Shown piece by piece: positions 35,741 through 64,000 of a stretch of 64,000 nucleotides of DNA. The notes beneath the pieces were generated by a model that made no database searches, was not told where the DNA came from, and was given only the letters and a program-made list of their open reading frames with translations. The position numbers were made by a program, and so were the translations under genes. The first letter of the stretch is position 1. The number at the start of each line of letters is the position of its first letter. Origin of the DNA: Lineus longissimus. Lineage: Eukaryota; Nemertea; Pilidiophora; Heteronemertea; Lineidae. The stretch lies in assembly GCF_910592395.1 (NCBI RefSeq), contig NC_088321.1, positions 15,936,001 through 16,000,000 of the forward strand, written 5' to 3'.

Positions 35741-35741
35741 T

Positions 35742-37050: not shown

Positions 37051-40000
37051 CCGACCAATCAGAGTGTCACCAGTTCAGAGCGCAACCACCTGACAGTTAT
37101 ATGGAGTTACACCAAAATGCTAACGATTCATTACAATGGTAAAAAAGTGTTGATTATTTCATCACATTCAGTGGACCTAGTCCAACCATCTCAGGAGGTC
37201 TAATGAACAAATTGCAGGCCACAAATTGCATGGCTTTTAAAACTTAAAACAAACAGTCACTTATACATGATGTGTACCTAAAGCTACACCAGAGCTATCA
37301 GTAAACTAGAATGGAACACTCAGAAAGACCACGTTGATTCACATCAGTATCTGTGTCCTTGCACAAGAAAACTTAGCTCCAGAACCAACTATTACAAGAA
37401 ATCTAGCTACACTCTTTCCCTGCATCCAGAAGGATGAACATGTCACCAGGCTTACTGAGAAGTTAGCCTCTCATCCAGATGGCACATATTTCAGCTCTGA
37501 TTATGGGACCAAGTCTTTCATCATGTGTGCTCACAATGTCTTGCACAATTGCCTACCAGGACTGAGACTGATTTCTGAGAACATCTCGCCTACATTTGCC
37601 AAGGACAAAAGAGGCAACACAGATTTACACAAAATTTCACAATCTATAACAAGTAATCAGTACTTTTTCCCACAGCTTCAAATCTTGCAAAGGACAAAAG
37701 GCCCAATGATTGTGATGTGAAACAAGCAACGCTAATTTACAAATGGAATGAAAGATTTAACACATTGGGGGAACTCCACATAACTGTCAGGTAATCACTC
37801 TCTCAACTGGTGACAATCAAACTGACCTGAAATTCTCATTATTGACCAGCCCTCAGGAATCCAACTAAACATGGGGTCATTGTATACAGTGGTACTGTAT
37901 TACCCCGATGAGAAGCAACACGTCCATCACTAGCAGCTAATATATTTGTGCGTACCAGTTTGACTACAGGCTGAAGTTGACGATGTACTCCTGACGGAGC
38001 CATTGGGTGCTTCGCCTGCTCATTGACCGAGGCATGGTGACCTGGAGACAGTGACCGGATGAGCACTAGCTGGTCGAAGGACATATTCACAGGGCGGCAA
38101 TTCGCATCTTCTCATCTTTTCTCGGTACCACCTATCAACGTGGAACAAGTTTTACCAGGAAACCGTCTCCCTACATAGCGTGGGGTACCAACCCACCGCA
38201 GATTCAGGATAGTGCAATGGTTTCCCAATAGCCTCCACCCGTCTCGCCCGATTGTGGTATCCATTCGCAATAGGCTTAACCACCGTCCTGCCCCTCTGAC
38301 ATCCCCATCTCTCAGGTTGGTAACAAAGGGGCAATCAGGTCTCAAATTTGGGGGAAAGGGCTGAACGATAATGACACTTTCCGACCAATCAGAGTGTCAC
38401 CAGTTCAGAGCGCAACCACCTGACAGTTATATGGAGTTACACCAAAATGCTAATGATTCATTACAATGGTAAAAAGGTGTTGATTATTTCATCACATTCA
38501 GTGGACCCAGTCCAACCATCTCAGGAGGTCTAATGAACAAATTGCAGGCCACAAATTGCATGGCTTTTAAAACTTAAAACAAACAGTCACTTATACATGA
38601 TGTGTACCTAAAGCTACACCAGAGCTATCAGTAAACTAGAATGGAACACTCAGAAAGACCACGTTGATTCACATCAGTATCTGTGTCCTTGCACAAGAAA
38701 ACTTAGCTCCAGAACCAACTATTACAAGAAATCTAGCTACAATCTTTCCCTGCATCCACAAGGATGAACATGTCACCAGGCTTACTGAGAAGTTAACCTC
38801 TCATCCAGATGGCACATATTTCAGCTCTGATTATGGGACCAAGTCCTTCATCATGTGTGCTCACAATGTCTTGCACAATTGCCTACCAAGACTGAGACTG
38901 ATTTCTGAGAATATCTCGCCTACATTTGCCAAGGACAAAAGAGGCAACACAGATTTACACAAAATTTCACAATCTATAACAAGTCATCAGTACTTTTTCC
39001 CACAGCTTCAAATCTTGCAAAGGACAAAAGGCCCAATGATTGTGATGTGAAACAAGCAACGCTAATTTACAAATGGAATGAAAGATTTAACACATTGGGG
39101 GAACTCCACATAACTGTCAGGTAATCACTCTCTCAACTGGTGACAATCAAACTGACCTGAAATTCTCATTATTGACCAGCCCTCAGGAATCCAACTAAAC
39201 ACGGGGTCATTGTATACAGTGGTACTGTATTACCCCGATGAGAAGCAACACGTCCATCACTAGCAGCTAATATATTTGTGCGTACCAGTTTGACTACAGG
39301 CTGAAGTTGACGATGTACTCCTGACGGAGCCATTGGGTGCTTCGCCTGCTCATTGACCGAGGCATGGTGACCTGGAGACAGTGACCGGATGAGCACTAGC
39401 TGGTCGAAGGACATATTCACAGGGCGGCAATTCGCATCTTCTCATCTTTTCTCGGTACCACCTATCAACGTGGAACAAGTTTTACCAGGAAACCGTCTCC
39501 CTACATAGCGTGGGGTACCAACCCACCGCAGATTCAGGATAGTGCAATGGTTTCCCAATAGCCTCCACCCGTCTCGCCCGATTGTGGTATCCATTCGCAA
39601 TAGGCTTAACCACCGTCCTGCCCCTCTGACATCCCCATCTCTCAGGTTGGTAACAAAGGGGCAATCAGGTCTCAAATTTGGGGGAAAGGGCTGAACGATA
39701 ATGACACTTTCCGACCAATCAGAGTGTCACCAGTTCAGAGCGCAACCACCTGACAGTTATATGGAGTTACACCAAAATGCTAATGATTCATTACAATGGT
39801 AAAAAGGTGTTGATTATTTCATCACATTCAGTGGACCCAGTCCAACCATCTCAGGAAGGTCTAATGAACAAATTGCAGGCCACAAATTGCATGGCTTTTA
39901 AAACTTAAAACAAACAGTCACTTATACATGATGTGTACCTAAAGCTACACCAGAGCTATCAGTAAACTAGAATGGAATACTCAGAAAAACCACTGTTGAT

Positions 40001-41270
40001 TAACATCAGTATCTGTGTCCTTGCACAAGAAAACTTAGCTCCAGAACCAACTATTACAAGAAATCTAGCTACAATCTTTCCCTGCATCCAGAAGGATGAA
40101 CATGTCACCAGGCTTACTGAGAAGTTAACCTCTCATCCAGATGGCACATATTTCAGCTCTGATTATGGGACCAAGTCTTTCATCATGTGTGCTCACAATG
40201 TCTTGCACAATTGCCTACCAGGACTGAGACTGATTTCTGAGAACATCTCGCCTACATTTGCCAAGGACAAAAGAGGCAACACAGATTTACATAAAATTTC
40301 ACAGTCTATAACAAGTAATCAGTACTTTTTCCCACAGCTTCAAATCTTGCAAAGGACAAAAGGCCCAATGATTGTGATGTGAAACAAGCAACGCTAATTT
40401 ACAAATGGAATGAAAGATTTAACACATTGGGGGAACTCCACATAACTGTCAGGTAATCACTCTCTCAACTGGTGACAATCAAACTGACCTGAAATTCTCA
40501 TTATTGACCAGCCCTCAGGAATCCAACTAAACATGGGGTCATTGTATACAGTGGTACTGTATTACCCCGATGAGAAGCAACACGTCCATCACTAGCAGCT
40601 AATATATTTGTGCGTACCAGTTTGACTACAGGCTGAAGTTGACGATGTACTCCTGACGGAGCCATTGGGTGCTTCGCCTGCTCATTGACCGAGGCATGGT
40701 GACCTGGAGACAGTGACCGGATGAGCACTAGCTGGTCGAAGGACATATTCACAGGGCGGCAATTCGCATCTTCTCATCTTTTCTCGGTACCACCTATCAA
40801 CGTGGAACAAGTTTTACCAGGAAACCGTCTCCCTACATAGCGTGGGGTACCAACCCACCGCAGATTCAGGATAGTGCAATGGTTTCCCAATAGCCTCCAC
40901 CCGTCTCGCCCGATTGTGGTATCCATTCGCAATAGGCTTAACCACCGTCCTGCCCCTCTGACATCCCCATCTCTCAGGTTGGTAACAAAGGGGCAATCAG
41001 GTCTCAAATTTGGGGGAAAGGGCTGAACGATAATGACACTTTCCGACCAATCAGAGTGTCACCAGTTCAGAGCGCAACCACCCGACAGTTATATGGAGTT
41101 ACACCAAAATGCTAATGATTCATTACAATTGTAAAAAGGTGTTGATTATTTTTATCACATTCAGTGGACCTAGTCCAACCATCTCAGAAGGTCTAATGAA
41201 CAAATTGCAGGCCACAAATTGCGTGGCTTTTGAAACTTAAAACCAAAGTACATGTAGTCACTTCACTACC
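37051..41270. repeat. 1,330-bp tandem triplication plus partial fourth copy
   Basis: Units begin with CCGACCAATCAGAGTGTCAC at 37051, 38381, 39711 and 41043. The first two intervals are 1,330 bp and the third 1,332. Copies differ by few bases. The fourth fades after about 230 bp. Each unit holds the same open frames: 128 codons on + (for example 37334-37720) and 83 and 77 codons on -. None resembles a protein family I know. A further diverged piece of the unit (about 43452-43680) is embedded in the next duplication. A CCAAT motif lies at each unit start. Confidence 0.9.
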
Positions 41271-42404
41271 TAAGCTTCTCCAAAGTTATAACTTAACTAC
41301 TGTACAGTGGCTGGAATACCAGAAGGATGTTCATTTGCCTCTCAGAAAGATCACTGTTGATTAACGTTAGTGCCTGCATCCTTGAACTAGAAAACATACT
41401 CTATGACTAACAAGAAATCTAGCTACATTCTTTCCCTCCGTCCCGGAGGATGAATAGTTTTAAAGGCACGCTGAGAGTAAACCTCTTATCCAGGAGGCGG
41501 ACAATCAATTCAGTTCTAATTGAAGTACAGCAGAATTCAACGTATACATTTAGGGCAACACTGAAAACAAGCAATTCACAGCTGAGCAATTAAATGTACA
41601 GGTAGTTTTGGTGCCATCGAAGTCCTTCATCATCTCCATCCTGCTCACAATGTATTGCACGTGCTGTTCCATCCAAGGACATCCCGTGTGAACCAATGCT
41701 GAAATAATGAGAACAACTGACTCAGATTAAGGTTTAAACAAAACATAACTTTAGCTTAATCTTCTTTCTAAAGTGCAATCATCTCTTCTTGCACAAGTTT
41801 TGGGTCATCTTGCTCACTGCCTGGATATCCCTGACAAAATATAAGCCTTGTACAATGGACCCATCTTTTCCATCAAATCTTGGGTCCACACCCGAGAGCT
41901 TCGTCCAAAGTTCACCACAGCACCATGAACCGATGTGTATCCTTCATTTATGATGTTCACAAGATTTTGCTGTCATATCAAATGCTAGACTCACCCTATT
42001 GACTCGGTGCAGGTAGGCAATTTTCAAATGAACCTGTCCTGGCATTCTGGATGTGACTTTGTCCTCAAAAGAACCATTTCAGTTGAAAGGACTGAATCAT
42101 TTCAAAACAACACAGAATCTGTTTCTGTGTAACGATGCCATTTTAAAGATGACCTGTTCAGAGTTTCAGTCACATGAAGTAGGTAAATCCTGATCTTGCC
42201 TGCAAAGACAGATCGGCTGGACAAGACCTAGGGATCACTTGCGTGGAGTTGCTTCCCAATACAAGTATGCTATAGCATAGTGACATATTGTACACAAGTT
42301 CAACCTCTTCACCAACCTTGCACTAAAAAGGTCGCTTCCATTGTTGCTGTCCTCTTCAGTCCGAATGGTATTGGGGTCAGCAAGGAATACCTCGATAAGG
42401 TCAG

Positions 42405-44745
42405 CCAATCTTGGTGAGAAGTTGGCAGTAGTGTGGGACCAGCAACCCTCAAAACGTAGACTGGTCAAGGCTTGTTTACCATTGGGACAAGGATGCTACA
42501 CCATCTTGGATCAGCTGCACTCCTTCCCGTCTCGATGATCATCATCACGTCGAGGTACTGGAAAGGATCACAATTTTCATTAGATTTTTTTTGTTCTGAA
42601 TGATAAATCTATATTGACACAAAAGGTCAGCGTAAACTTAAATTTTCCACATCTAGATATTCATCTGTTGAAGATGACGACACCTGACCAATACAAAGCC
42701 TTTGTAGGAACAGCTGCCATCAAATCACAAGAGCACCATAAAATAACTGTCATGTCGGCTGAAATTGTGCTCGGCCATCTGCAGTTAATGGTGTTTACAG
42801 ACTTTCTGCAGGTTTTAAATGCTTCCAGGCCTTCTATTTCTCAAGATATTAAATCAGTAACTGTAAGTTAATGGCACAACTTCAAATTCTGTTCACTGCG
42901 GGGACGTCCTCAGCCTTCCCGCGACCAAATTTCTCTTATACTTACGGTGGTGAATCTTCTTACTGACCAGCTGTCACTTTCTCACCAAGTCCTAGAATCT
43001 AAATTGCTCTCTCTGACTGGCTCAGATCACAGCCAAATGGAATCATCCCAACAGCAGAGCATATTTGTTACTAAACAAACTAACATGCTACTTCTTAATT
43101 GCCAAGGCAGGAAGAGAATGAGGACCCTCCTAGGCATCAATCTCAATGTCTCTGATGGCAGCCATGCAATAGCACATCTCCAGGTCAAACCAAGCTGCTT
43201 TGCCCCTTTCTTTTCATGTGAGTCTCTCTCAGAAAGCCTCTGTGACAATATATTCAAGTTGAACTTTAGCCAAACTCAAAGTAAATTTGAAAACTTACAC
43301 AAAATGCTATGTGTTTCTCCAGTTCTGCTCTTCATGCCGCAGGCAACATGGCGGGAATTACAAATCATTAGCTTGGTCCGGCCCTCCCTCAGCTACTGTT
43401 CACAGCAGGCGTTCGTGATCTACGGTTAAAAGCATCCTAGCATCCCTGTCGAGCTACACCAGAGTTATCAGTAAACTAGAGTGGAATACTCAGAAAGACC
43501 ACGTTGATTAACATCAGTATCTGTGTCCTTGCACAAGAAAACTTAGCTCCAGAACCAACTATTACAAGAAATCTAGCTACATTCTTTCCCTGCATCCAGA
43601 AGGATGAACATGTCACCAGGGTTACTGAGAAGTAATCACCTCTCATCCAGATGGCACATATTTCAGCTCTGATTGTAGTACCATGTCCTTCATCATGTGT
43701 GCGTCAATCCGTCAATCTTGGTGAGAAGTTGGCAGTAGTACGGGACCTGCAACCCTCAGAATGTAGACTGGTCAAGGCTTGTTTACCATTGGGACCACGA
43801 TGCTATACCATCTTGGATCAGCTGCACTCCTTTCCAATCTCGATCATCATCACGTCGAGGTACTGGAAAGGATCACAATTTTCATTAGATTTTTCGGTTC
43901 TAAATGATTAATCTATATTGACATGAAAGGGTCAGCGTAAACTTAAATTTTCCACATCTAGATATTCATCTGTTGAAGATGACGACACCTGGCCAACACA
44001 AATCCTTTGTAGAAACAGCTGCCATCAAATCACAAGAGCACCATAAAATAACTGTCATGTCGGCTGAAATTGTGCTCGGCCATCTGCAGTTAATGGTGTT
44101 TACAGACTTTCTGCAGGTTTTAAATGCTTCCTGGCCTTCTATTTCTCAAGATATTTAATCAGTAACTGTAAGTTAATGGCACAACTTCAAATTCTGTTCA
44201 CTGCGGGGACGTCCTCAGCCTGCCCACAACCAAATTTCTCTTATACTTACGGTGGTGAGTCTCCTTCCTGACCAGCTGTCACTTTCTCACCAAGTCCTAG
44301 AATCTAAATTGCTTTCTCTGACTGGCTCGGATTACAGCCAAATGGGATCATCCCAACAGCAGAGCATATTTGTTGCTAAACAAACTAACATGCTACTTCT
44401 TAATTGCCAAGGCAGGAAGAGAATGAGGACCCTCCTTGGCATCAATCTCAATGTCTCTGATGGCAGCCATGCAATGGCACATCTCCAGGTCAAACCAAGC
44501 TGCTTTGCCACTTTCTTTTCATGTGAGTCTCTCTCAGAAAGCCTCTGTGACAATATATTCAAGTTGAACTTTAGCCAAACTCAAAGTAAATTTGAAAACT
44601 TACACAAAATGCTATATGTTTCTCCAGTTCTGCTCTTCATGCCGCAGGCAGCATGGCGGGAATTACAAATCATTAGCTTGGTCTGGCCCCCCTCCGCTAC
44701 TGTTCACAGCAGGCGTTCGTGACGTACGGTTAGAAGCATCCTAGC
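42405..44745. repeat. 1,305-bp tandem duplication
   Basis: 42405-43440 and 43712-44745 are near-identical, offset by about 1,305-1,307 bp. Open frames of 160 codons (42947-43429) and 156 codons (44252-44722) lie in the copies on +, and 76 codons on - (43027-43257, 44332-44562). No family was recognised. A perfect minus-strand donor (GTAAGTAT) marks both copies at 42946 and 44251. Confidence 0.85.
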
Positions 44746-46040
44746 ATCCCCGTCGCGTGATGGTTTCCCTGGGGCTACCTGACATCATGCAGCGCCAATC
44801 TTGGACCTCAGCTAAAAAGAAACCAAACTTTTATAACTAGCATAAAATTTTGTGCCATTACACACGAAATCCTCCGACACTTGACATCCTGAAGCTTCCA
44901 TCCTTTCATTCACTGGCTGTTGATATTCATCGTAGCAAAGTGGCCTAGTTGAGGCAGCTATTTGGTACATATATGGCAAGGCATCCTGTTTTAGGACTCC
45001 CCCTCCTCATCGTCCGCTAATTGTATTCAGCTAACATTGACGACCCTAACGCAATGTCGTACGGGATTCATTTCATTTCATTGCCCACTATCAGGAGTAC
45101 AATGACTGGCATCACTATATTCGCACCTCAACTCCATCGGATCAGAGGCAAGGACTTTTCAAACTGCATTATTACAGCAGAATGAACTCTGTCACAAAAA
45201 AAACTGACAAGAAACTTCATGCCTCGGAGGCACGCAGGTCTCCACCCCTTTTGTTGACAGTTTATCTATGAATACTTAGCCACGCTATATCGAACTGTTC
45301 CGTCATCTTCTGCTGACTTCCAAACCCAAAGTAAATCTGAAAACTTACACAAAATGCTATATGTTTCTCCAGTTCTGCTCTTCATGCCGCAGGCAACATG
45401 GCGGGAATTACAAATCATTAGCTTGGTCCGGCCCCCCTCCGCTACTGTTCACAGCAGGCGTTCGTGACATACGGTTAGAAGCATCCTAGCATCCCCGTCG
45501 CGTGATGGTTTCCCTGGGGCTACCTGACATCATGCAGCGCCAATCTTGGACCTCAGCTAAAAAGAAACCAAACTTTTATAACTAGCATAAAATTGTGTGC
45601 CATTACACACAAAATCCTCTGACACTTGACATCCTGACGCTTCCATCTTTTCATTCACTGGCTGTTGATATTTCATCGTAGCAAAGTGGCCTAGCTGAGG
45701 CATCTATTTGGTACATATAAGGCAAGGCATCCTGTTTTAGGACCCTCCTCCTCATCTTCCACTATAAATTGTAGTCAGCTTACATTGATGACCCTAAACG
45801 CAATGTCGTACGGGTCCAGTCAACTATTCATTGCCCACTATCAGGAGTGCAATGACTGGCATCACTATATTCGCACCTCAACTCCATCGGATCAGAGGCA
45901 AGGACTTTTCAAACTGCTTTATTACAGCAGAATGAACTCTTGTCACAAAAAAAGCTGACAAGAAACTTCATGCCTCGAAGGCACGCAGGTCTCCACCCCT
46001 TTTGTTGACAGTATACTATGAATACTTAGCCACGCTATAT
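44590..46040. repeat. 744-bp tandem duplication
   Basis: The stretch beginning AAAACTTACACAAAATGCTA near 44597 recurs near 45340, and GCATCCTAGCATCCCCGTCG recurs 744 bp apart (about 44735 and 45480). Copies diverge slightly more than those of the 1,330-bp array. Confidence 0.8.
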
Positions 46041-47265
46041 CGAACTGTTCCATCATCTGCTGCTGTACGAGTCTCCCTTGGACAGCCTTGGTGACATCCA
46101 CGCCTTCTGAGCTAACCCAGGCTTTCTACTGTAGTAGGACTGGTTCTCTCGGAGACAGCCTAGGTGACAGGTTTTCTGCAGTCGTGGTGAAGCTGGTTCT
46201 CTTATAGACAGACTCGGTGGCATCCATGCCCAATGATCTTGAAACCAGGCTGAAAAAGAATTCAAACAATTAGATTTTTGTAGGCTTAAACAAACACAAA
46301 GAGATTCTTGATTTCTTCAATATTCTGAAATGTTCATCCTATTTTGACTGGTCCCAATTTCTCACGGTATGGTAGTCTAGCTGAGATGGTCACCTCATAG
46401 TAATGTGGTAGGGGAAGTTGCCATCATCCCTGTTCATAGATCATCCTCTTCTGTCGTTGTCATCATTCACTATTTGCCTCTCAATAGTGTGGTCGATCAA
46501 GTTTAATGTGGTGTGGGACTGTTGTTATCTTTAGGTTGTGGGTGCAACCTCAAACTATGTCTCCCTCTGTCACTAAGATTTCAGTATCTCAAGTCATAGG
46601 ATTGGCATAGCTGTAGGCCCCTATTTGACTGAAGCTTTCTAAGCGCTGCAGACATACAGCAGACCACAAGTTCATCACTAATAAGCTAACTTTTACTGCA
46701 TATACTACCTCAACCATGTCCTGACAAAGTCCCTCAGATGCGGTGGCCGGGATGGATTATGACAGACGATGGATTCTTCACTAGAACAGGACCGTCCATC
46801 TAAGACTGAGAATGAAGATGATGGGTTTCCAAACTACCTCATGAAACCAGGCTGAAAAAGAAGGCAAACAGTTAAAAATAATATATCAATTTATAATGAT
46901 AACAATTCTGGGGGAATTCTCTCCATAATCCTCAAGTACCATAACCAGCCCAACCTTGTAACAATGTGGCAGGTACTGTCATACTTCCTGTGACAATTCT
47001 CCACAACTCTCCTCATTGCATGCAGCCTGTAGTAGCACTAGCAGGCCACCAAACTTATTCAAGTTCATACTAACAAATTTATATTCAATGTTTGACTGGT
47101 GCCGGTGCCAATGTGACTGTACCCCACCTGAGAATCCTGGCTCCAGTCTCCACTCTGCTAAAAGTTCTCCATGTTGAAGACCGATCAGCACAACCATCAT
47201 AGCCAGAGCCTCTGTATAAGCCAGGCAGACTCTCCTGTGTTTGGAAGCCATTTCCAATCCCAATC

Positions 47266-49500: not shown

Positions 49501-50189
49501 GGCACCGATGAGCGTCTAGGACAATCAGACTTCGTACTTTGTCGTCCGTAGCTCTCTGCGTAAGGATTGCGCCGGCGAAACCTGCCTATTTTCTAGAATG
49601 AGCTGAGAAACCGAAAGGACTGTTGTTTTGATTCTGACCAAAGGACAACAACAGCAGTTCCATAGGTGGTAATTTAAAGGGTTAACCGTTTATTTACCGT
49701 ACAATAGGATGGGCTAATTGCCACTTGATGTAGAGATCAGGATTGTAACGATGCTGACACGGCATTGTATTATTTATAATTATGTTACCAACTACCATAC
49801 ACAGCGTAGCTCTAGTTTCATTGGTATCAGACCGTTTATAAACATTCAGAAAGAATCACTTGGTCGTTTCCGGATGCCTTTTAATGATTGATATGGAAAG
49901 ATAGGCGACATCATGTTGTCCGATGGTAATGACTTCGTGTTCCGCTCGCTCGTGTCAATGTCATAGTAATTTATTAAGCGGTCTTACATTGGTGAAGCTG
50001 GAGTAACATCATTCAACATCGGCTACATTTTATTATCGTGGCTCAGTTGTGGATCTCAGAGCAACAGGATTCTTTGCGGTCACTGACAAGTTGTTCCACT
50101 TGTGGACAATAACGCAACTACGCGCATTCGTCTACAAGGTAGGTTGTGACTTTGTCTTGCGTTTCGTTGTGAGATGTGGAATCCTCTTT

Positions 50190-50790
50190 GTCTGTATCGT
50201 ACGCACTCAAACTTAAATCCCACACCAGGTTGTCCATTTTATAAATCACAGTTGGCTGTATAGACAGGATAAACCAGAGTCTTTTATACAAAAACTTTGG
50301 ATAAACTAAAGTCCGCATACTCGATTCAAAAAGAATCGACTCGAACTTTAGTGCAAATCCACCATTGCAACATTACATCATTGGCGCTAAAAACTATTTC
50401 CTATGACCTTGGTGACCTTGATTCAAATAACATTTTCAAGAAGGCAATTCAAATATTAAAATCAGCTACAAACATTATCTATAATATCACTGAGCTATAT
50501 AAATAAGGTGAATTGTGAAAAATCGGTGCAACTTTCGAAATATACGATTACTTGGAACTATTTCAGCCAATCACTCTGCCACCTGCGCGACCTAGTCACA
50601 ATTTTTGCGCGTTTTCAATATGGCGTCGACCGATATGGTACCAGAGGGATATCGCCTAGCAGAATGAGAAGTGAAGAAAACTTATTCTCCTTCGTGGAAG
50701 CTTGGTGGCTCAGTGGTTTAGAGTGCTAGACTTTCAGCATGATTGTCACTGGTTCGACTCCCTGTGAGTGCGCTATTATCCTTCTCTTTT
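50190..50790. repeat. Diverged single relative of the 932-bp array unit
   Basis: Aligns by eye with the array unit over the block AATCCCACACC to GAGCTATATAAATA and on through YY1-like ATGGCG to a tRNA-like segment. The tRNA-like part (about 50695-50765) has a textbook A box, TGGCTCAGTGG, and B box GGTTCGACTCC. It is about 80-85% identical in the best block (20 differences over about 131 nt, no indel). Confidence 0.65.
50703..50762 (+). repeat. tRNA-derived (SINE-head-like) segment with strong A and B boxes
   Basis: A box TGGCTCAGTGG and B box GGTTCGACTCC are correctly ordered and about 45 bp apart; the D stem GCTC/GAGT and anticodon stem TGCT/AGCA can form. The acceptor stem does not pair and the T stem is poor, so it is not a working tRNA gene. 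Confidence 0.5.
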
Positions 50791-51368
50791 TTTTCTTCAT
50801 ATCCTCTTATTTATTCATGTATATTTGCCTTTGCACATATTATCATCACCATCATTATCATTATCATCATGTTTGGGAAGCCTTCAAGTTCCTTTTATCC
50901 ATTATCAGCAGGACTCATTCACCAAAAACTTAATCAAGTCACTATGACATGGCCCCGTTGATTTAGTCATTGTTTGCGTTGTGATATCCTGCGCGTGTTG
51001 GACTACATTCTTTCTTTAAATATTGAACCGCCTACACCAGAGTCCTTACCGGTATTTCGATAAGGCCTAGCAGGCAATCATCATGATAAAATCAATTAAA
51101 TTATCAATTAAATCAATCACCGGCTGCACACCTGTCAGTTTCCCGTGGTTATCGGCACTAAAAGGCCTGGTTGCCATGGAAACGTTTGTGGTCACAGCAA
51201 TTAGATGGTTAAGTTCAAATATGCACTTGATCTCGACAAAAGGCTGCATTTGTTTGAGAAATCGTTCTTAATCTATTTTACAAAGCCGCCGGATATGGCT
51301 CCAATGCCATTGTAGTTGCACCGTCGTAACGTTCCACAAACTACAGTGCAACCTCTCTATTGGGGACA

Positions 51369-51545
51369 CCAATGGGACTCGGCGGACACCAATGGGACTG
51401 GGCGGACACCAATGGGACAGGGTGGACGCCAATGGGACTGGGCGGACACCAATGGGACTGGGCGGAACCAATGGGACAGGGTGGACGCCAATGGGACTGG
51501 GCGGACACCAATGGGACTGGGCGGACACCAATGGGACTGGGCGTT
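51369..51545. repeat. 20-bp minisatellite, 9 copies
   Basis: Units of GGACACCAATGGGACTGGGC at 19-20 bp spacing (AATGGG at 51371, 51391, 51411, 51431, 51451, 51470, 51490, 51510, 51530). Twenty is not a multiple of three, so all frames read the same repeating peptides on both strands; none is a gene. Confidence 0.93.
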
Positions 51546-51644
51546 GGTGTCCGTGTATATTGTATCATAATATTTCCGCTTGACATCGAGGTGAGGACAT
51601 TCTCGTCTTGTCTCTCCCAGTCATTAAAGGACTGGTAACACAAA

Positions 51645-51700
51645 GCTAAAGGAAGTCAACAATGCGCCCATGCGGCAACGGGCAGCCAATTCAACATCTA
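51645..51700 (+). pseudogene. Decayed copy of the 51740-51862 exon
   Basis: GCTAAAGGAAGTCAACAATG followed by CGGCAACGGGCAGCCA resembles the real exon (GTTGAAGGAGGACTTCAATG, then GGCAACGGGCCGCCAG), with small indels that break the frame. Confidence 0.45.
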
Positions 51701-51739
51701 TCTCTCCCTTTAATGAGCTGCATTGTTTATATTTTACAG

Positions 51740-51862
51740 AGACTCAGACTTAGACTAGCGCCGCGATGAGCAGGCTTAACGGACGGACTGAGAAGACGAA
51801 GTTGAAGGAGGACTTCAATGCCCCAATGGGTGGCAACGGGCCGCCAGAACAGTTCGAGGAAG
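51740..51862 (+). CDS. Possible first coding exon of an unrecognised gene
   Basis: Acceptor TATTTTACAG before 51740, ATG at 51766 and strong donor GTAAGG after 51862. It encodes MSRLNGRTEKTKLKEDFNAP followed by a Gly/Pro-rich end, 32 codons plus one base (phase 1). The short leader before the ATG implies a 5' noncoding exon upstream. I do not recognise the protein. No further exon is visible: the 932-bp array fills the rest of the window, so it would lie in the first intron if the gene is real. Confidence 0.42.
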
Positions 51863-51887
51863 GTAAGGGTCACTAGGCAGAGACATT

Positions 51888-52016
51888 AGGGAGTTTTCGC
51901 AATGCCCCCGAAACGTCAACACAAACGCCTATCCAAGTTTTCAACTTCCTAATCACGATCCCGAACAATCTGATAGGCGTTCGCAATGGCGTTTCGGGGG
52001 TTTGCGAAAACTCCCT
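51888..52016. mobile_element. 129-bp MITE with 3-bp target duplication
   Basis: Inverted ends AGGGAGTTTTCGCAA (left, and right as reverse complement), continuing to CCCCGAAACG on both sides. Flanks are ATT at 51885-51887 and 52017-52019. A 3-bp duplication and GGG-rich ends fit PIF/Harbinger-type MITEs; the assignment is inference. It sits just after the putative exon's donor. Confidence 0.75.
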
Positions 52017-52760
52017 ATTAAAGCGTTCGCGTGTACGTGTCTGTCGGTAGTTCGGTTACCGAGTTGTTTTTGTACCGACCAATGAGTAATACAATGTATG
52101 ATTCAACGGTGAATAACCGTAAAAACAACTGAGAAATAGGAGAAACCCCTATTGGCGACTTTGAGTAACTCTTGGCCGCTGCCAATGGCTCCCATTTGAT
52201 ATGTTTAGCTGTGAGAGATTCGATTATACCTTTTTTCTGAATCACAGAATTGATGAGCCAACAACGAGTTATAACAGATGGAGTTAGGTATCGGACAGTG
52301 GCCATAGGTGAGGCATCTTCTAATATCAGAGTCAGTCGCATGCTCCTCTCCTCGCACGCGTCTGTCATTAGTACCGAGTGCGGCATTGAAGTTCAGGATA
52401 TAGGCGAGGGGATGATTCGGTTTTTATCGATCAAAGCCCACGAAACACTAACGCGATGGTCTGTCCCTTTGTTTGACGTCCTGATCACTATTTCAGACAA
52501 TAGAATATGTCATCACAAAATTAGCACCAGAGGTAACACTGAGGCAAGATTAGCTTATATTATCGATGATGCAGTGTTAACCAGAAAAAAGATTAAATCG
52601 AACGAGTGATGTAAGACTAATGACACGATTTTCTTCGATCAACTTTGCCTTAAATCAGTCACGCTGGCGACTCTATCGCGCATCAGCTGCCTTGGTGGCT
52701 GCACAGAGTGTGAAGTGTAGTCCGTAGTTGGTTCTGCTACATACTGTTGCATCCATCAAT
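52017..52760. other. Between MITE and array; no feature supported
   Basis: Contains a fragment of the CTATTGGCGACTTTG element near 52145. A 119-codon open frame at 52250-52609 has no family signal. Confidence 0.35.
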
Positions 52761-53207
52761 ATCACCCTCTTGGTTACATAGATCCCAAACCAAATTTATC
52801 CCTTTCAATCACAGTGAGCTCTTTGAATAAGATAAACTAAAGATGCAGACTCGATTCCAAGAGAATAAACCTGTGAATCAACTCGAACTTTGAAACGAAT
52901 CCGCCATATTGCTGACATCATTGGCGCCAAAGACTATTTCTTTTGACCCTGATGACCTCGCTTCTAAAAACATTTTTGAGAAAGCCATTCAAACATTAAA
53001 AACAACTACGAACATTATCTATTATATCACCGAGCTATATAAATACGACATATCAAGAAAAATCGGTCGCAATATCGAGTTTTACGGTTAGCTTGGAACT
53101 CTTTGTACCCAATTACCCTTCCGCCAGCGTGACCTCGTCACAATCATGGCGCTTCTTCAATTTGGCGACGACTTGACCAACGAAAATCCCAGACTACCGT
53201 TAAAGCC

Positions 53208-53284
53208 TTGATGGCTTCGGCGGTTAGACGGTTGCACTGTGGATTGGATGGTCACGAGTTCGAACCCAGGCGAATCTATTTTTT
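53208..53284 (+). repeat. tRNA-like Pol III module in each 932-bp unit (first copy)
   Basis: A-box-like TGGCTTCGGCGG (53212-53223) and B-box GAGTTCGAACC (53256-53266) are 44 bp apart; T6 (53279-53284), a Pol III terminator, follows 12 bp after the B box. Repeats at +932 to 63464; the fifth copy has A for G in the A box. GCCT/AGGC could pair as a partial acceptor stem, but the T stem is poor, so a degenerate tRNA-derived module is more likely than a tRNA gene. Confidence 0.5.
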
Positions 53285-53666
53285 CGAGATTTTTTTAAAA
53301 ATGTTCTGGTTATTATTCATTCATGTACGTTTATCAGGCACGGATCCAAGCGGTTGCACCAGATGCACGGCTCCTAATTGATGTAAACGTTTTAATTTAC
53401 CACTCATGAAATTTTGGAACACACCTATCCAGGAATTTTGATGAGAAATTCAGAGCACGCTCCCTCCAGTTCCAGTTCCTAGATTCGCCGGCCCTCTTAA
53501 AGCATCATCTTATACCTTTATGAATATTATCACGAAGAAAACCCCTTCACCCGAACTTTTCAAGCTGAAGTACACACTGATTTAGGTGTTCGAGCACTCC
53601 AGAGAATGGTTTGACAAGTCGGCGCTAAATTCATCATCAGTGATGAGCATTTAGTTTGTAACTACA

Positions 53667-54143
53667 GTGATGAGCAGGCGGATAGATTCAAATTACATAT
53701 CATCGTTCTGGTCACCTAAATCCCACACCCAAAACTGTCCCTTCAAATCACGTGCACTTAGCTATATGAATACGACTGCCGTGTGCTTGCGCACTTCCGA
53801 CTCCAAAAGAATCGACTCGAATCTTAATTCAAATTCGCCATTGCTGACAACATTGGCGCCAAAGACTATTTCTTTTGACCCTGATGACCTCGCTTCTAAA
53901 AACATTTTTGAGAAAGCCATTCAAACATTAAAAACAACTACGAACATTATCTATTATATCACCGAGCTATATAAATACGACATATCAAGAAAAATCGGTC
54001 GCAATATCGAGTTATACGGTAAGCTTGGAACTCTTTGTACCCAATTACCCTTCCGCCAGCGTGACCTCGTCACAATCATGGCGCTTCTTCAATTTGGCGA
54101 CGACTTGACCAACGAAAATCCCAGACTACCGTTAAAGCCTTGA
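53667..54143 (+). other. Open frame in 932-bp unit (first of 10; 118 codons in most copies)
   Basis: From the GTGATGAGCAGGCGG landmark, a frame of 118 codons is open in every full unit (54599, 55531, 56463, 57395, 58327, 59259, 60191, within 61042, 62055, 62987). In the first, a one-base difference in the stop (AAG for TAG) extends it to 158 codons. It contains SFDPDDLASKNIFEKAIQTL and ends in KIGRNIELYG. No known family. It starts only with GTG, so translation is doubtful. A related frame exists in the diverged relative near 50390. Confidence 0.3.
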
Positions 54144-57100
54144 TGGCTTCGGCGGTTAGACGGTTGCACTGTGGATTGGATGGTCACGAGTTCGAACCCA
54201 GGCGAATCTATTTTTTCGAGATTTTTTTAAAAATGTTCTGCATATTATTCATTCATGTACGTTTATCAGGCACGGATTCAAGCGGGTGCACCAGATGCAC
54301 GGCTCCTAATTGATGTAAACGTTTTAATTTACCACTCATGAAATTTTGGAACACACCTATCCAGGAATTTTGATGAGAAGTTCAGAGCACGCTCCCTCCA
54401 GTTCCAGTTCCTAGATTCGCCGGCCCTCTTATAGCATCATCTTATACCTTTATGAATATTATCACGAAGAAAACCCCTTCACCCGAACTTTTCAAGCTGA
54501 AGTACACACTGATTTAGGTGTTCGAGCACTCCAGAGAATGGTTTGACAAGTCGGCGCTAAATTCATCATCAGTGATGAGCATTTAGTTTTTAACTACAGT
54601 GATGAGCAGGCGGATAGATTCAAATTACATATCATCTTTCTGGTCACCTAAATCCCACACCCAAAACTGTCCCTTCAAATCACGTGCACTTAGCTATATG
54701 AATACGACTGCCGTGTGCTTGCGCACTTCCGACTCCAAAAGAATCGACTCGAATCTTAATTCAAATTCGCCATTGCTGACAACATTGGCGCCAAAGACTA
54801 TTTCTTTTGACCCTGATGACCTCGCTTCTAAAAACATTTTTGAGAAAGCCATTCAAACATTAAAAACAACTACGAACATTATCTATTATATCACCGAGCT
54901 ATATAAATACGACATATCAAGAAAAATCGGTCGCAATATCGAGTTATACGGTTAGCTTGGAACTCTTTGTACCCAATTACCCTTCCGCCAGCGTGACCTC
55001 GTCACAATCATGGCGCTTCTTCAATTTGGCGACGACTTGACCAACGAAAATCCCAGACTACCGTTAAAGCCTTGATGGCTTCGGCGGTTAGACGGTTGCA
55101 CTGTGGATTGGATGGTCACGAGTTCGAACCCAGGCGAATCTATTTTTTCGAGATTTTTTAAAAAATGTTCTGGTTATTATTCATTCATGTACGTTTATCA
55201 GGCACGGATCCAAGCGGGTGCACCAGATGCACGGCTCCTAATTGATGTAAACGTTTTAATTTACCACTCATGAAATTTTGGAACACACCTATCCAGGAAT
55301 TTTGATGAGAAGTTCAGAGCACGCTCCCTCCAGTTCCAGTTCCTAGATTCGCCGGCCCTCTTATAGCATCATCTTATACCTTTATGAATATTATCACGAA
55401 GAAAACCCCTTCACCCGAACTTTTCAAGCTGAAGTACACACTGATTTAGGTGTTCGAGCACTCCAGAGAATGGTTTGACAAGTCGGCGCTAAATTCATCA
55501 TCAGTGATGAGCATTTAGTTTGTAACTACAGTGATGAGCAGGCGGATAGATTCAAATTACATATCATCTTTCTGGTCACCTAAATCCCACACCCAAAACT
55601 GTCCCTTCAAATCACGTGCACTTAGCTATATGAATACGACTGCCGTGTGCTTGCGCACTTCCGACTCCAAAAGAATCGACTCGAATCTTAATTCAAATTC
55701 GCCATTGCTGACAACATTGGCGCCAAAGACTATTTCTTTTGACCCTGATGACCTCGCTTCTAAAAACATTTTTGAGAAAGCCACTCAAACATTAAAAACA
55801 ACTACGAACATTATCTATTATATCACCGAGCTATATAAATACGACATATCAAGAAAAATCGGTCGCAATATCGAGTTATACGGTTAGCTTGGAACTCTTT
55901 GCACCCAATTACCCTTCCGCCAGCGTGACCTCGTCACAATCATGGCGCTTCTTCAATTTGGCGACGACTTGACCAACGAAAATCCCAGACTACCGTTAAA
56001 GCCTTGATGGCTTCGGCGGTTAGACGGTTGCACTGTGGATTGGATGGTCACGAGTTCGAACCCAGGCGAATCTATTTTTTCGAGATTTTTTAAAAAATGT
56101 TCTGGTTATTATTCATTCATGTACGTTTATCAGGCGCGGATCCAAGCGGGTGCACCAGATGCACGGCTCCTAATTGATGTAAACGTTTTAATTTACCACT
56201 CATGAAATTTTGGAACACACCTATCCAGGAATTTTGATGAGAAGTTCAGAGCACGCTCCCTCCAGTTCCAGTTCCTAGATTCGCCGGCCCTCTTATAGCA
56301 TCATCTTATACCTTTATGAATATTATCACGAAGAAAACCCCTTCACCCGAACTTTTCAAGCTGAAGTACACACTGCTTTAGGTGTTCGAGCACTCCAGAG
56401 AATGGTTTGACAAGTCAGCGCTAAATTCATCATCAGTGATGAGCATTTAGTTTGTAACTACAGTGATGAGCAGGCGGATAGATTCAAATTACATATCATC
56501 TTTCTGGTCACCTAAATCCCACACCCAAAACTGTCCCTTCAAATCACGTGCACTTAGCTATATGAATACGACTGCCGTGTGCTTGCGCACGTCCGACTCC
56601 AAAAGAATCGACTCGAATCTTAATTCAAATTCGCCATTGCTGACAACATTGGCGCCAAAGACTATTTCTTTTGACCCTGATGACCTCGCTTCTAAAAACA
56701 TTTTTGAGAAAGCCATTCAAACATTAAAAACAACTACGAACATTATCTATTATATCACCGAGCTATATAAATACGACTTATCAGGAAAAATCGGTCGCAA
56801 TATCGAGTTATACGGTTAGCTTGGAACTCTTTGTACCCAATTACCCTTCCGCCAGCGTGACCTCGTCACAATCATGGCGCATCTTCAATTTGGCGACGAC
56901 TTGACCAACGAAAATCCCAGACTACCGTTAAAGCCTTGATAGCTTCGGCGGTTAGACGGTTGCACTGTGGATTGGATGGTCACGAGTTCGAACCCAGGCG
57001 AATCTATTTTTTCGAGATTTTTTAAAAAATGTTCTGGATATTATTCATTCATGTACGTTTATCAGGCACGGATCCAAGCGGGTGCACCAGATGCACGGCT

Positions 57101-60100
57101 CCTAATTGATGTAAACGTTTTAATTTACCACTCATGAAATTTTGGAACACACCTATCCAGGAATTTTGATGAGAAGTTCAGAGCACGCTCCCTCCAGTTC
57201 CAGTTCCTAGATTCGCCGGCCCTCTTATAGCATCATCTTATACCTTTATGAATATTATCACGAAGAAAACCCCTTCACCCGAACTTTTCAAGCTGAAGTA
57301 CACACTGATTTAGGTGTTCGAGCACTCCAGAGAATGGTTTGACAAGTCGGCGCTAAATTCATCATCAGTGATGAGCATTTAGTTTGTAACTACAGTGATG
57401 GGCAGGCGGATAGATTCAAATTACATATCATCTTTCTGGTCACCTAAATCCCACACCCAAAACCGTCCCTTCAAATCACGTGCACTTAGCTATATGAATA
57501 CGACTGCCGTGTGCTTGCGCACTTCCGACTCCAAAAGAATCGACTCGAATCTTAATTCAAATTCGCCATTGCTGACAACATTGGCGCCAAAGACTATTTC
57601 TTTTGACCCTGATGACCTCGCTTCTAAAAACATTTTTGAGAAAGCCATTCAAACATTAAAAACAACTACGAACATTATCTATTATATCACCGAGCTATAT
57701 AAATACGACATATCAAGAAAAATCGGTCGCAATATCGAGTTATACGGTTAGCTTGGAACTCTTTGCACCCAATTACCCTTCCGCCAGCGTGACCTCGTCA
57801 CAATCATGGCGCTTCTTCAATTTGGCGACGACTTGACCAACGAAAATCCCAGACTACCGTTAAAGCCTTGATGGCTTCGGCGGTTAGACGGTTGCACTGT
57901 GGATTGGATGGTCACGAGTTCGAACCCAGGCGAATCTATTTTTTCGAGATTTTTTAAAAAATGTTCTGGATATTATTCATTCATGTACGTTTATCAGGCA
58001 CGGATCCAAGCGGGTGCACCAGATGCACGGCTCCTAATTGATGTAAACGCTTTAATTTACCACTCATGAAATTTTGGAACACACCTATCCAGGAATTTTG
58101 ATGAGAAGTTCAGAGCACGCTCCCTCCAGTTCCAGTTCCTAGATTCGCCGGCCCTCTTATAGCATCATCTTATACCTTTATGAATATTATCACGAAGAAA
58201 ACCCCTTCACCCGAACTTTTCAAGCTAAAGTACACACTGATTTAGGTGTTCGAGCACTCCAGAGAATGGTTTGACAAGTCGGCGCTAAATTCATCATCAG
58301 TGATGAGCATTTAGTTTGTAACTACAGTGATGAGCAGGCGGATAGATTCAAATTACATATCATCTTTCTGGTCACCTAAATCCCACACCCAAAACTGTCC
58401 CTTCAAATCACGTGCACTTAGCTATATGAATACGACTGCCGTGTGCTTGCGCACTTCCGACTCCAAAAGAATCGACTCGAATCTTAATTCAAATTCGCCA
58501 TTGCTGACAACATTGGCGCCAAAGACTATTTCTTTTGACCCTGATGACCTCGCTTCTAAAAACATTTTTGAGAAAGCCATTCAAACATTAAAAACAACTA
58601 CGAACATTATCTATTATATCACCGAGCTATATAAATACGACATATCAAGAAAAATCGGTCGCAATATCGAGTTATACGGTTAGCTTGGAACTCTTTGCAC
58701 CCAATTACCCTTCCGCCAGCGTGACCTCGTCACAATCATGGCGCTTCTTCAATTTGGCGACGACTTGACCAACGAAAATCCCAGACTACCGTTAAAGCCT
58801 TGATGGCTTCGGCGGTTAGACGGTTGCACTGTGGATTGGATGGTCACGAGTTCGAACCCAGGCGAATCTATTTTTTCGAGATTTTTTAAAAAATGTTCTG
58901 GTTATTATTCATTCATGTACGTTTATCAGGCGCGGATCCAAGCGGGTGCACCAGATGCACGGCTCCTAATTGATGTAAACGTTTTAATTTACCACTCATG
59001 AAATTTTGGAACACACCTATCCAGGAATTTTGATGAGAAGTTCAGAGCACGCTCCCTCCAGTTCCAGTTCCTAGATTCGCCGGCCCTCTTATAGCATCAT
59101 CTTATACCTTTATGAATATTATCACGAAGAAAACCCCTTCACCCGAACTTTTCAAGCTGAAGTACACACTGATTTAGGTGTTCGAGCACTCCAGAGAATG
59201 GTTTGACAAGTCGGCGCTAAATTCATCATCAGTGATGAGCATTTAGTTTGTAACTACAGTGATGAGCAGGCGGATAGATTCAAATTACATATCATCTTTC
59301 TGGTCACCTAAATCCCACACCCAAAACTGTCCCTTCAAATCACGTGCACTTAGCTATATGAATACGACTGCCGTGTGCTTGCGCACTTCCGACTCCAAAA
59401 GAATCGACTCGAATCTTAATTCAAATTCGCCATTGCTGACAACATTGGCGCCAAAGACTATTTCTTTTGACCCTGATGACCTCGCTTCTAAAAACATTTT
59501 TGAGAAAGCCATTCAAACATTAAAAACAACTACGAACATTATCTATTATATCACCGAGCTATATAAATACGACATATCAAGAAAAATCGGTCGCAATATC
59601 GAGTTATACGGTTAGCTTGGAACTCTTTGCACCCAATTACCCTTCCGCCAGCGTGACCTCGTCACAATCATGGCGCTTCTTCAATTTGGCGACGACTTGA
59701 CCAACGAAAATCCCAGACTACCGTTAAAGCCTTGATGGCTTCGGCGGTTAGACGGTTGCACTGTGGATTGGATGGTCACGAGTTCGAACCCAGGCGAATC
59801 TATTTTTTCGAGATTTTTTAAAAAATGTTCTGGTTATTATTCATTCATGTACGTTTATCAGGCGCGGATCCAAGCGGGTGCACCAGATGCACGGCTCCTA
59901 ATTGATGTAAACGTTTTAATTTACCACTCATGAAATTTTGGAACACACCTATCCAGGAATTTTGATGAGAAGTTCAGAGCACGCTCCCTCCAGTTCCAGT
60001 TCCTAGATTCGCCGGCCCTCTTATAGCATCATCTTATACCTTTATGAATATTATCACGAAGAAAACCCCTTCACCCGAACTTTTCAAGCTGAAGTACACA

Positions 60101-63100
60101 CTGATTTAGGTGTTCGAGCACTCCAGAGAATGGTTTGACAAGTCGGCGCTAAATTCATCATCAGTGATGAGCATTTAGTTTGTAACTACAGTGATGGGCA
60201 GGCGGATAGATTCAAATTACATATCATCTTTCTGGTCACCTAAATCCCACACCCAAAACCGTCCCTTCAAATCACGTGCACTTAGCTATATGAATACGAC
60301 TGCCGTGTGCTTGCGCACTTCCGACTCCAAAAGAATCGACTCGAATCTTAATTCAAATTCGCCATTGCTGACAACATTGGCGCCAAAGACTATTTCTTTT
60401 GACCCTGATGACCTCGCTTCTAAAAACATTTTTGAGAAAGCCATTCAAACATTAAAAACAACTACGAACATTATCTATTATATCACCGAGCTATATAAAT
60501 ACGACATATCAAGAAAAATCGGTCGCAATATCGAGTTATACGGTTAGCTTGGAACTCTTTGTACCCAATTACCCTTCCGCCAGCGTGACCTCGTCACAAT
60601 CATGGCGCTTCTTCAATTTGGCGACGACTTGACCAACGAAAATCCCAGACTACCGTTAAAGCCTTGATGGCTTCGGCGGTTAGACGGTTGCACTGTGGAT
60701 TGGATGGTCACGAGTTCGAACCCAGGCGAATCAATTTTTTCGAGATTTTTAAAAAAATGTTCTGGATATTATTCATTCATGTACGTTTATCAGGCACGGA
60801 TCCAAGCGGGTGCACCAGATGCACGGCTCCTAATTGATGTAAACGCTTTAATTTACCACTCATGAAATTTTGGAACACACCTATCCAGGAATTTTGATGA
60901 GAAGTTCAGAGCACGCTCCCTCCAGTTCCAGTTCCTAGATTCGCCGGCCCTCTTATAGCATCATCTTATACCTTTATGAATATTATCACGAAGAAAACCC
61001 CTTCACCCGAACTTTTCAAGCTAAAGTACACACTGATTTAGGTGTTCGAGCACTCCAGAGAATGGTTTGACAAGTCGGCGCTAAATTCATCATCAGTGAT
61101 GAGCATTAAGTTGGTAACTACAGTGATGAGCAGGCGGATAGATTCAAATTACATATCATCTTTCTGGTCACCTAAATCCCACACCCAAAACTGTCCCTTC
61201 AAATCACGTGCACTTAGCTATATGAATACGACTGCCGTGTGCTTGCGCACTTCCGACTCCAAAAGAATCGACTCGAATCTTAATTCAAATTCGCCATTGC
61301 TGACAACATTGGCGCCAAAGACTATTTCTTTTGACCCTGATGACCTCGCTTCTAAAAACATTTTTGAGAAAGCCATTCAAACATTAAAAACAACTACGAA
61401 CATTATCTATTATATCACCGAGCTATATAAATACGACATATCAAGAAAAATCGGTCGCAATATCGAGTTATACGGTTAGCTTGGAACTCTTTGCACCCAA
61501 TTACCCTTCCGCCAGCGTGACCTCGTCACAATCATGGCGCTTCTTCAATTTGGCGACGACTTGACCAACGAAAATCCCAGACTACCGTTAAAGCCTTGAT
61601 GGCTTCGGCGGTTAGACGGTTGCACTGTGGATTGGATGGTCACGAGTTCGAACCCAGGCGAATCTATTTTTTCGAGATTTTTTAAAAAATGTTCTGGTTA
61701 TTATTCATTCATGTACGTTTATCAGGCGCGGATCCAAGCGGGTGCACCAGATGCACGGCTCCTAATTGATGTAAACGTTTTAATTTACCACTCATGAAAT
61801 TTTGGAACACACCTATCCAGGAATTTTGATGAGAAGTTCAGAGCACGCTCCCTCCAGTTCCAGTTCCTAGATTCGCCGGCCCTCTTATAGCATCATCTTA
61901 TACCTTTATGAATATTATCACGAAGAAAACCCCTTCACCCGAACTTTTCAAGCTAAAGTACACACTGATTTAGGTGTTCGAGCACTCCAGAGAATGGTTT
62001 GACAAGTCGGCGCTAAATTCATCATCAGTGATGAGCATTTAGTTTGTAACTACAGTGATGAGCAGGCGGATAGATTCAAATTACATATCATCTTTCTGGT
62101 CACCTAAATCCCACACCCAAAACTGTCCCTTCAAATCACGTGCACTTAGCTATATGAATACGACTGCCGTGTGCTTGCGCACTTCCGACTCCAAAAGAAT
62201 CGACTCGAATCTTAATTCAAATTCGCCATTGCTGACAACATTGGCGCCAAAGACTATTTCTTTTGACCCTGATGACCTCGCTTCTAAAAACATTTTTGAG
62301 AAAGCCATTCAAACATTAAAAACAACTACGAACATTATCTATTATATCACCGAGCTATATAAATACGACATATCAAGAAAAATCGGTCGCAATATCGAGT
62401 TATACGGTTAGCTTGGAACTCTTTGCACCCAATTACCCTTCCGCCAGCGTGACCTCGTCACAATCATGGCGCTTCTTCAATTTGGCGACGACTTGACCAA
62501 CGAAAATCCCAGACTACCGTTAAAGCCTTGATGGCTTCGGCGGTTAGACGGTTGCACTGTGGATTGGATGGTCACGAGTTCGAACCCAGGCGAATCTATT
62601 TTTTCGAGATTTTTTAAAAAATGTTCTGTTTATTATTCATTCATGTACGTTTATCAGGCGCGGATCCAAGCGGGTGCACCAGATGCACGGCTCCTAATTG
62701 ATGTAAACGTTTTAATTTACCACTCATGAAATTTTGGAACACACCTATCCAGGAATTTTGATGAGAAGTTCAGAGCACGCTCCCTCCAGTTCCAGTTCCT
62801 AGATTCGCCGGCCCTCTTATAGCATCATCTTATACCTTTATGAATATTATCACGAAGAAAACCCCTTCACCCGAACTTTTCAAGCTGAAGTACACACTGA
62901 TTTAGGTGTTCGAGCACTCCAGAGAATGGTTTGACAAGTCGGCGCTAAATTCATCATCAGTGATGAGCATTTAGTTTGTAACTACAGTGATGAGCAGGCG
63001 GATAGATTCAAATTACATATCATCTTTCTGGTCACCTAAATCCCACACCCAAAACTGTCCCTTCAAATCACGTGCACTTAGCTATATGAATACGACTGCC

Positions 63101-64000
63101 GTGTGCTTGCGCACTTCCGACTCCAAAAGAATCGACTCGAATCTTAATTCAAATTCGCCATTGCTGACAACATTGGCGCCAAAGACTATTTCTTTTGACC
63201 CTGATGACCTCGCTTCTAAAAACATTTTTGAGAAAGCCATTCAAACATTAAAAACAACTACGAACATTATCTATTATATCACCGAGCTATATAAATACGA
63301 CATATCAAGAAAAATCGGTCGCAATATCGAGTTATACGGTTAGCTTGGAACTCTTTGCACCCAATTACCCTTCCGCCAGCGTTACCTCGTCACAATCATG
63401 GCGCTTCTTCAATTTGGCGACGACTTGACCAACGAAAATCCCAGACTACCGTTAAAGCCTTGATGGCTTCGGCGGTTAGACGGTTGCACTGTGGATTGGA
63501 TGGTCACGAGTTCGAACCCAGGCGAATCTATTTTTTCGAGATTTTTTTTTAAATGTTCTGGATATTATTCATTCATGTACGTTTATCAGGCACGGATCCA
63601 AGCGGGTGCACCAGATGCACGGCTCCTAATTGATGTAAACGTTTTAATTTACCACTCATGAAATTTTGGAACACACCTATTCAGGAATTTTGATGAGAAG
63701 TTCAGAGCACGCTCCCTCCAGTTCCAGTTCCTAGATTCGCCGGCCCTCTTACAGCATCATCTTATACCTTTATGAATATTATCACGAAGAAAACCCCTTC
63801 ACCCGAACTTTTCAAGCTGAAGTACACACTGATTTAGGTGTTCGAGCACTCCAGAGAATGGTTTGACAAGTCGGCGCTAAATTCATCATCAGTGATGAGC
63901 ATTTAGTTTGTAACTATACAGTGATGAGCAGGCGGATAGATTCAAATTACATATCATCTTTCTGGTCACCTAAATCCCACACCCAAAACTGTCTCTTCAA

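Follow-up and report, generated by a model that had tools for sequence, protein, structure and literature searches.

This study was concerned with a tandem array of 932-bp units in the ribbon worm Lineus longissimus, located at the right end of a 64,000-nucleotide stretch of contig C14 (NC_088321.1, positions 15936001-16000000) that is called the window below. The array is best explained as one local expansion of a repeat superfamily dispersed through this genome, a small gene-less mobile element with a tRNA-type promoter or a satellite derivative, and we place the probability of this explanation at about 0.68. The genome searched comprised 391 Mb in 30 contigs. Many arrays of the superfamily occur on several contigs with units of varied length, they share a conserved core and a tRNA-like module, and they are homogeneous within themselves. 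The module has no tRNA fold, and no protein frame is kept between unit types. The 932-bp array is not a lone RNA-gene array but a member of a genome-wide superfamily, and its appearance is that of selfish repetitive DNA, not of a set of working RNA genes.

The 932-bp unit is also found on contigs C6, C13, C11, C20 and C2, as short arrays. A family pattern covering box A and box B gave 1020 exact matches genome-wide (515 + 505), versus none in the reversed control (0 + 0). The first half of this pattern is specific to the superfamily, and the count therefore represents family members, not RNA polymerase III (Pol III) promoters at large. Among the first 100 matches listed there were arrays spaced near 814, 888, 1170, 1222 and 1268 bp, and core and module together are common to arrays spaced near 804, 814, 888, 932, 1054, 1172, 1222, 1268 and 1277 bp. 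The superfamily is thus made up of short tandem arrays with unit lengths of about 800 to 1280 bp. In addition, when the diverged relative at window positions 50200-50800 was used as query, at least 41 matches were obtained, with 40 of the 1968 first-look candidates scored; most are limited to the core and belong to further arrays, with units of different length, on C4, C1, C3 and C8. Among 33 copies from 932-type arrays (partial copies excluded, and unit 13 of C14 kept apart), identity was 98-99% within arrays (0.982-0.991) and 92-96% between them (0.918-0.959), so that units are closer within than between arrays, as in satellite-type repeats. The first-pass annotation had offered three reasons for the perfect spacing, namely that amplification was very recent, that homogenisation was strong, or that the array is one of functional RNA genes, and these identities support the first two.

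The same annotation described twelve landmarks exactly 932 bp apart in nearly identical copies, and both points were borne out. Three landmark strings were found in 12 copies each, at exact 932-bp steps (copies of the first string run from 53224 to 63476), no other self-match offset in window positions 52001-64000 comes close to 932, and the array units share about 99% identity. All of units 1-11 have a length of 932 bp; together they contain 30 variable positions, and their differences from the majority sequence number 11, 7, 1, 5, 8, 3, 1, 3, 8, 2 and 2, respectively, the 11 of unit 1 including three due to the array edge. However, unit 12 has two extra bases, and unit 13, which lies outside the window in locus L009, is 877 bp long and 90% identical; the length drift, annotated as zero, is therefore small. 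The array does leave the window, and its size, which had been left open, is now 13 units: it ends about 967 bp beyond the window end, so that the full array covers 52908-64967 (right end approximate). Units 6 and 9 have the variants at unit positions 486 and 663 in common (663 is found in unit 10 too), and units 5 and 8 those at 769 and 832. Because these variants are common to units three apart, they suggest a three-unit block duplication within the array, a further trace of recent amplification; the lag-3 distance, a lag picked after looking at the data, was equally low in 84 of 5000 shuffles of unit order. It is highly improbable that the array is an assembly artefact. The unit-specific variants (30 variable positions across 11 units), the apparent block duplication, the diverged last unit and the presence of the 932-bp unit on five other contigs all argue against it, as does the Hifiasm assembly of Pacific Biosciences long reads (79-fold coverage; PMC8593623), and no point in its favour was found.

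The surroundings of the other arrays were also compared. The array on C6 (L013, 4335-10000) switches orientation near 5805-5822 and is in part inverted. Five arrays of about two units each occur at C20:3.27-3.39 Mb (L017-L021) in a larger repeated segment, part of which is inverted, and the long flanks of these five arrays are about 98% identical to one another. Among the flank matches listed, different contigs have only short pieces in common outside the arrays. For example, 125 bp at 95% identity are found in a C20 flank (L020, 6006-6130) and a C2 flank (L022, 6802-6926), and this piece sits right at the edge of the C2 array.

The nine aligned unit types have the same layout: the core is followed by the tRNA-like module, which is followed by shorter conserved pieces within a spacer that differs among types through large insertions. 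The best conserved part of the unit between types is the 265-bp core upstream of the tRNA-like stretch, a part which the first-pass annotation did not single out. The core contains TATATAAATA and CCAAT-like motifs, and nine of the 15 aligned loci retain TATATAAATA unchanged. Between the 932-type and the 1172-type, identity is about 79% in the core, about 67% in the module and 63-70% in the remaining aligned pieces. In five divergent loci picked among the 15 aligned (C14, the 50-kb copy, L024, L038 and L026), divergence is 0.186 in the core versus 0.389 downstream, and 0.269 in the box-B window; on these figures the well-conserved part is therefore the core. Three clade comparisons of the nine unit types gave 0.201, 0.157 and 0.081 for box B versus 0.210, 0.248 and 0.136 for the core, values which are biased in favour of box B because four of the nine types were picked via a pattern containing it. 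Trimmed unit types have one box B per unit, and a doubled box B was not found. One module, in locus L040 (C8:9606525-9609863), has a partly repeated GGTCACGGGTTCG stretch ahead of box B. A protein-coding reading of the unit was rejected: its frame of 122 amino acids matched no homologous protein at an E value up to 0.001 and is broken between unit types by one-base insertions or deletions and by stops.

The first-pass annotation combined a TATA-like box, box A, box B and a T-run terminator into a Pol III module. All four are present on one strand; box B and the TATA-like box need qualification. Box A, box B and the T-run occur together on the same strand only in eight of nine unit types and in none of 200 shuffles of each, for a three-part motif that was defined after the sequence was seen; the ninth type is without any run of five T. 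Boxes at a spacing suitable for a type 2 Pol III promoter, with a T-run, are thus found in eight types. The consensus of box B is GGTTCGANTCC, and the AGTTCGAACCC of the window array scores as imperfect against it. The TATA-like box TATATAAATA, the only element considered, lies not near -31 to -24 but 176 bp upstream of box A. The upstream region that matters in type 2 Pol III genes is -31 to -24 (PMC7279448).

Searches for an RNA product of the module were largely negative. ARAGORN found no tRNA in the window, and Rfam gave no match up to E 1 in 50000-64000. Applied to eight relatives, Rfam identified one true tRNA-Asp, in the flank of L038 (441-512), and for the module nothing but the tmRNA model matched, weakly and in three of the eight, the best at 18.9 bits versus a cut-off of 47. 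These matches, to a T-arm-like piece, are taken as chance. No conserved fold was found in the module across 15 types: the consensus energy was -4.5 versus a column-shuffled mean of -5.5 (s.d. 2.1), and 66 of 100 column shuffles were at least as low. An RNA-structure reading was rejected on the absence of a conserved fold together with the weakness of the tmRNA matches, in a test that covered the module alone. In the same L038 locus, near the tRNA-Asp, positions 991-1091 form a long near-perfect hairpin matched by several microRNA models below their cut-offs.

The module does resemble a tRNA gene in primary sequence. In 17 of 20 modules, none of 300 shuffles was as similar to Lineus tRNA-Tyr as the module itself; in the remaining three, the number of shuffles as good was 24 (m2, which was mis-cut), 6 (m11) and 1 (C1_815). 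Compared with four other tRNA or tRNA-like strings from Lineus, tRNA-Tyr was strictly best for 14 of the 20 modules, while 3 gave a tie and 3 scored higher with another string. tRNA-Tyr as the parent of the module is a lead, not a proof. An origin from a spliced tRNA was tried and proved weak, the spliced form scoring higher for 12 of the 20 modules, equally for 2 and lower for 6, with the mis-cut m2 included. All 17 tRNA-Tyr genes found by pattern genome-wide have an intron after the anticodon.

A functional array of Pol III RNA genes, the third reason offered for the perfect spacing, is accordingly not what the data favour, and we regard it as quite improbable. The three-part motif, kept on one strand in nearly all types, would speak for it. 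The lack of a tRNA or Rfam match, the lack of a conserved fold, the altered box B of the window array and the distance of the TATA-like box from box A, which is far from the active region of known genes (PMC7279448), speak against it. Furthermore, conservation of the module does not exceed that of the remaining unit: diversity among 932-type arrays is 0.075 in the module versus 0.059 in the core and 0.053 at positions 379-893. The module may still hold a weak or past Pol III promoter, because boxes and T-run are kept across divergent unit types. A more far-reaching proposal, which we consider a long shot, is that the 265-bp core is a working control element. The superfamily would then be hundreds of scattered platforms for promoters or TFIIIC, and its arrays would be nemertean-specific regulatory or chromosome-organising sites, or a lineage-specific source of small RNA. 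The core is about twice as well conserved as the downstream part in divergent loci, yet it has no kept protein frame.

In the preferred explanation, each unit comprises the core, followed by a tRNA-like stretch that carries box A, box B and a T-run, and after it a spacer that changes quickly. The tRNA-like stretch would be a captured Pol III promoter of the kind found in short interspersed nuclear elements (SINEs) or terminal-repeat retrotransposons in miniature (TRIMs). Units would have been seeded at scattered sites by transposition; unequal exchange and gene conversion would then have increased their number locally and kept them at one length. The exact 932-bp spacing would then result from recent homogenisation, not from selection for an RNA-gene array. 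The locus on C11 bears on the seeding step. It contains one full unit flanked by two partial units, and can be interpreted as a 322-bp middle between two terminal copies that agree at 595 of 616 positions. On either side of this two-copy locus stands a direct repeat of at most 9 bp, resembling a target-site duplication; none of 300 random edge pairs reached that length.

Several observations weigh against this explanation. The true length of the C11 duplication may be anywhere between 4 and 9 bp, because some letters of the repeat also belong to the unit. Six edge pairs were tested, with C6 left out, and the duplication was convincing at C11 alone: edge repeats at C14, C13, C2 and the two C20 sites are only 0-5 bp long, and 45 of 300 random pairs were as good. 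At four single copies the edge repeats are 0-8 bp, and the best of them (L023) was equalled by 5 of 60 random pairs. The left edges of arrays fall near unit positions 4, 663-669 and 794-813 and the right edges near 50-85, 454-481 and 921, no fixed element ends were found, and with several edge phases a satellite-type dispersal therefore fits at least as well as clean insertion. The seemingly good conservation of box B in the nine unit types would also count against the explanation, but 17 of 87 downstream windows in the five divergent loci are as conserved as the box-B window or more, and without the four types selected by box B, divergence is 0.279 in box B, 0.216 in the core and 0.492 in the linker before the module. 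Given the single duplication at C11, the weak other edges and the several phases, transposition-like seeding is therefore inferred only as an occasional event, and the class of element is left open.

Two alternatives were also considered. The superfamily could be an ordinary satellite with no mobile origin, its likeness to a tRNA being an old accident of the ancestor. The several array phases, the inverted arrangement on C6 and the lack of fixed ends are what such a satellite could show. We nevertheless consider it unlikely, since scattered single diverged copies keep core and module together, an edge duplication is present at C11, and the similarity to tRNA-Tyr exceeds every shuffle in most modules. 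A somewhat better candidate, though still a doubtful one, is a TRIM of the Helenus type, in which a long terminal repeat (LTR) of about 620 bp would hold the tRNA-like promoter and a short internal part would complete an LTR-internal-LTR-internal array like those of Cassandra. Helenus families have been reported in L. longissimus and Notospermus geniculatus, tandem arrays are noted for one Helenus, LTR-11_DR (PMC10886601), and Cassandra arrays reach at least 12 repeated units (PMC7215508). The copy-spacer-copy order at C11 also fits, and its flanking repeat could contain the 4-bp duplication of animal Helenus. However, the features expected of an LTR element are mostly not found. A scan of nine unit types for a primer-binding site, using a list of primers, gave at best 11-13 of 18 matches, inside the range of 15 shuffles each. 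C11 has no TG...CA ends matching a target duplication, and the tRNA-like module with boxes A and B is present, within an LTR whose limits are putative. The sizes differ as well: the longest Helenus LTR given is 323 bp and the longest element 1263 bp (PMC10886601), versus about 620 and 1556 bp here. Helenus was compared by its published description. Among the titles and abstracts searched none describes the 932-bp repeat; it may already be published as a Helenus.

In its best reading the array is ordinary in kind, the nearest kinds being tRNA- or SINE-derived satellites and the Helenus TRIMs with tRNA-like LTRs. Newt, Xenopus, green frogs and squamates all have tandem repeats that contain a tRNA-like stretch (PMC10702118). 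The amphibian repeats (newt PolIII/TAN, Xenopus OAX/satellite I and Rana/polIII) are likewise tandem units with a tRNA-like stretch and no known SINE match (PMC10702118). Their units are shorter, about 360 nt in newt and 250 nt in frog versus about 800-1280 bp in Lineus; for OAX that source states no more than a unit length too great for a proper satellite (PMC10702118). The Lineus unit differs from them in its conserved non-tRNA core and its nemertean host. Also, the newt repeat is described as transcribable in vitro (PMC10702118), whereas the Lineus unit is known from sequence alone. The squamate SINE-derived satellites are likewise repeats from tRNA-headed elements made into arrays at many loci (PMC10702118). 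They differ in that the parent SINE in Lineus is not identified, no SINE library having been searched, and in that the tRNA-like head is described as the first region of a SINE (PMC10702118) whereas in Lineus the core precedes the tRNA-like stretch. Helenus elements are TRIMs with tRNA-like LTRs and 4-bp target duplications in animals, and arrays are noted for one zebrafish family (PMC10886601). They resemble the Lineus repeat in having a gene-less unit, kept boxes A and B, mostly no functional tRNA and the same host species (PMC10886601); primer-binding site, termini and sizes are unmatched, and an edge duplication is present at one of six tested edge pairs. Cassandra also carries a Pol III promoter element in an array of units plus spacers (PMC7215508), but it is a plant TRIM with a 5S promoter and defined LTRs.

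The coordinates of the array, its representative unit and the diverged copies to its left are given in Table 1.

Table 1. Features of the 932-bp repeat in the window (window coordinates).
Feature	Position	Strand	Remarks
932-bp tandem array, units 1-12	52908..64000	+	window end cuts unit 12
Representative unit (unit 3)	54769..55700	+	one difference from majority sequence
Conserved core of unit 3 (unit positions 1-265)	54769..55033	+	best conserved stretch between unit types
TATA-like box of unit 3, TATATAAATA	54900..54909	+	176 bp upstream of box A
Box-A-like TGGCTTCGGCGG of unit 3	55076..55087	+	
Box-B-like AGTTCGAACCC of unit 3	55121..55131	+	two positions off consensus
First T-run past box B, unit 3	55143..55148	+	six T
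2-bp insertion, unit 12	63917..63918 (approximate)	+	only length change within window
Diverged fragment of 932-bp repeat	52764..52907	+	in register, adjoins array on left
Old single diverged relative (50-kb copy)	50317..50887	+	core 79% identical to 932-bp unit
Boxes of 50-kb relative	box A 50706-50716; box B 50751-50761; T-run 50787-50794	+	

Other repeats also occur in the window. Two more tandem arrays, at 37047-41493 and 42406-46065, have periods near 1330 and 1305 bp; their main copy pairs are 94-96% identical, and they have a piece of about 250 bp in common. A search of the window with the 932-bp unit gave no match in either of them. A 50-bp unit is repeated about 11 times at 35731-36269, a 180-bp unit occurs three times at 26859-27396, and a long imperfect CCATTA run occupies 3990-4325. 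In addition, positions 24084-25934 hold an exon-like open frame, 98% of which aligns at 100% identity with an atos homolog A-like protein of Lineus longissimus.

These results have several consequences. Stages from scattered tRNA-promoter repeats to young homogenised arrays are visible in one chromosome-scale invertebrate genome, which allows the passage from a mobile element to a satellite to be traced. Caution is needed with tRNA-like box pairs in the Lineus genome, which may be copies of repeats. If it is true that the core is functional, the finding would matter more.

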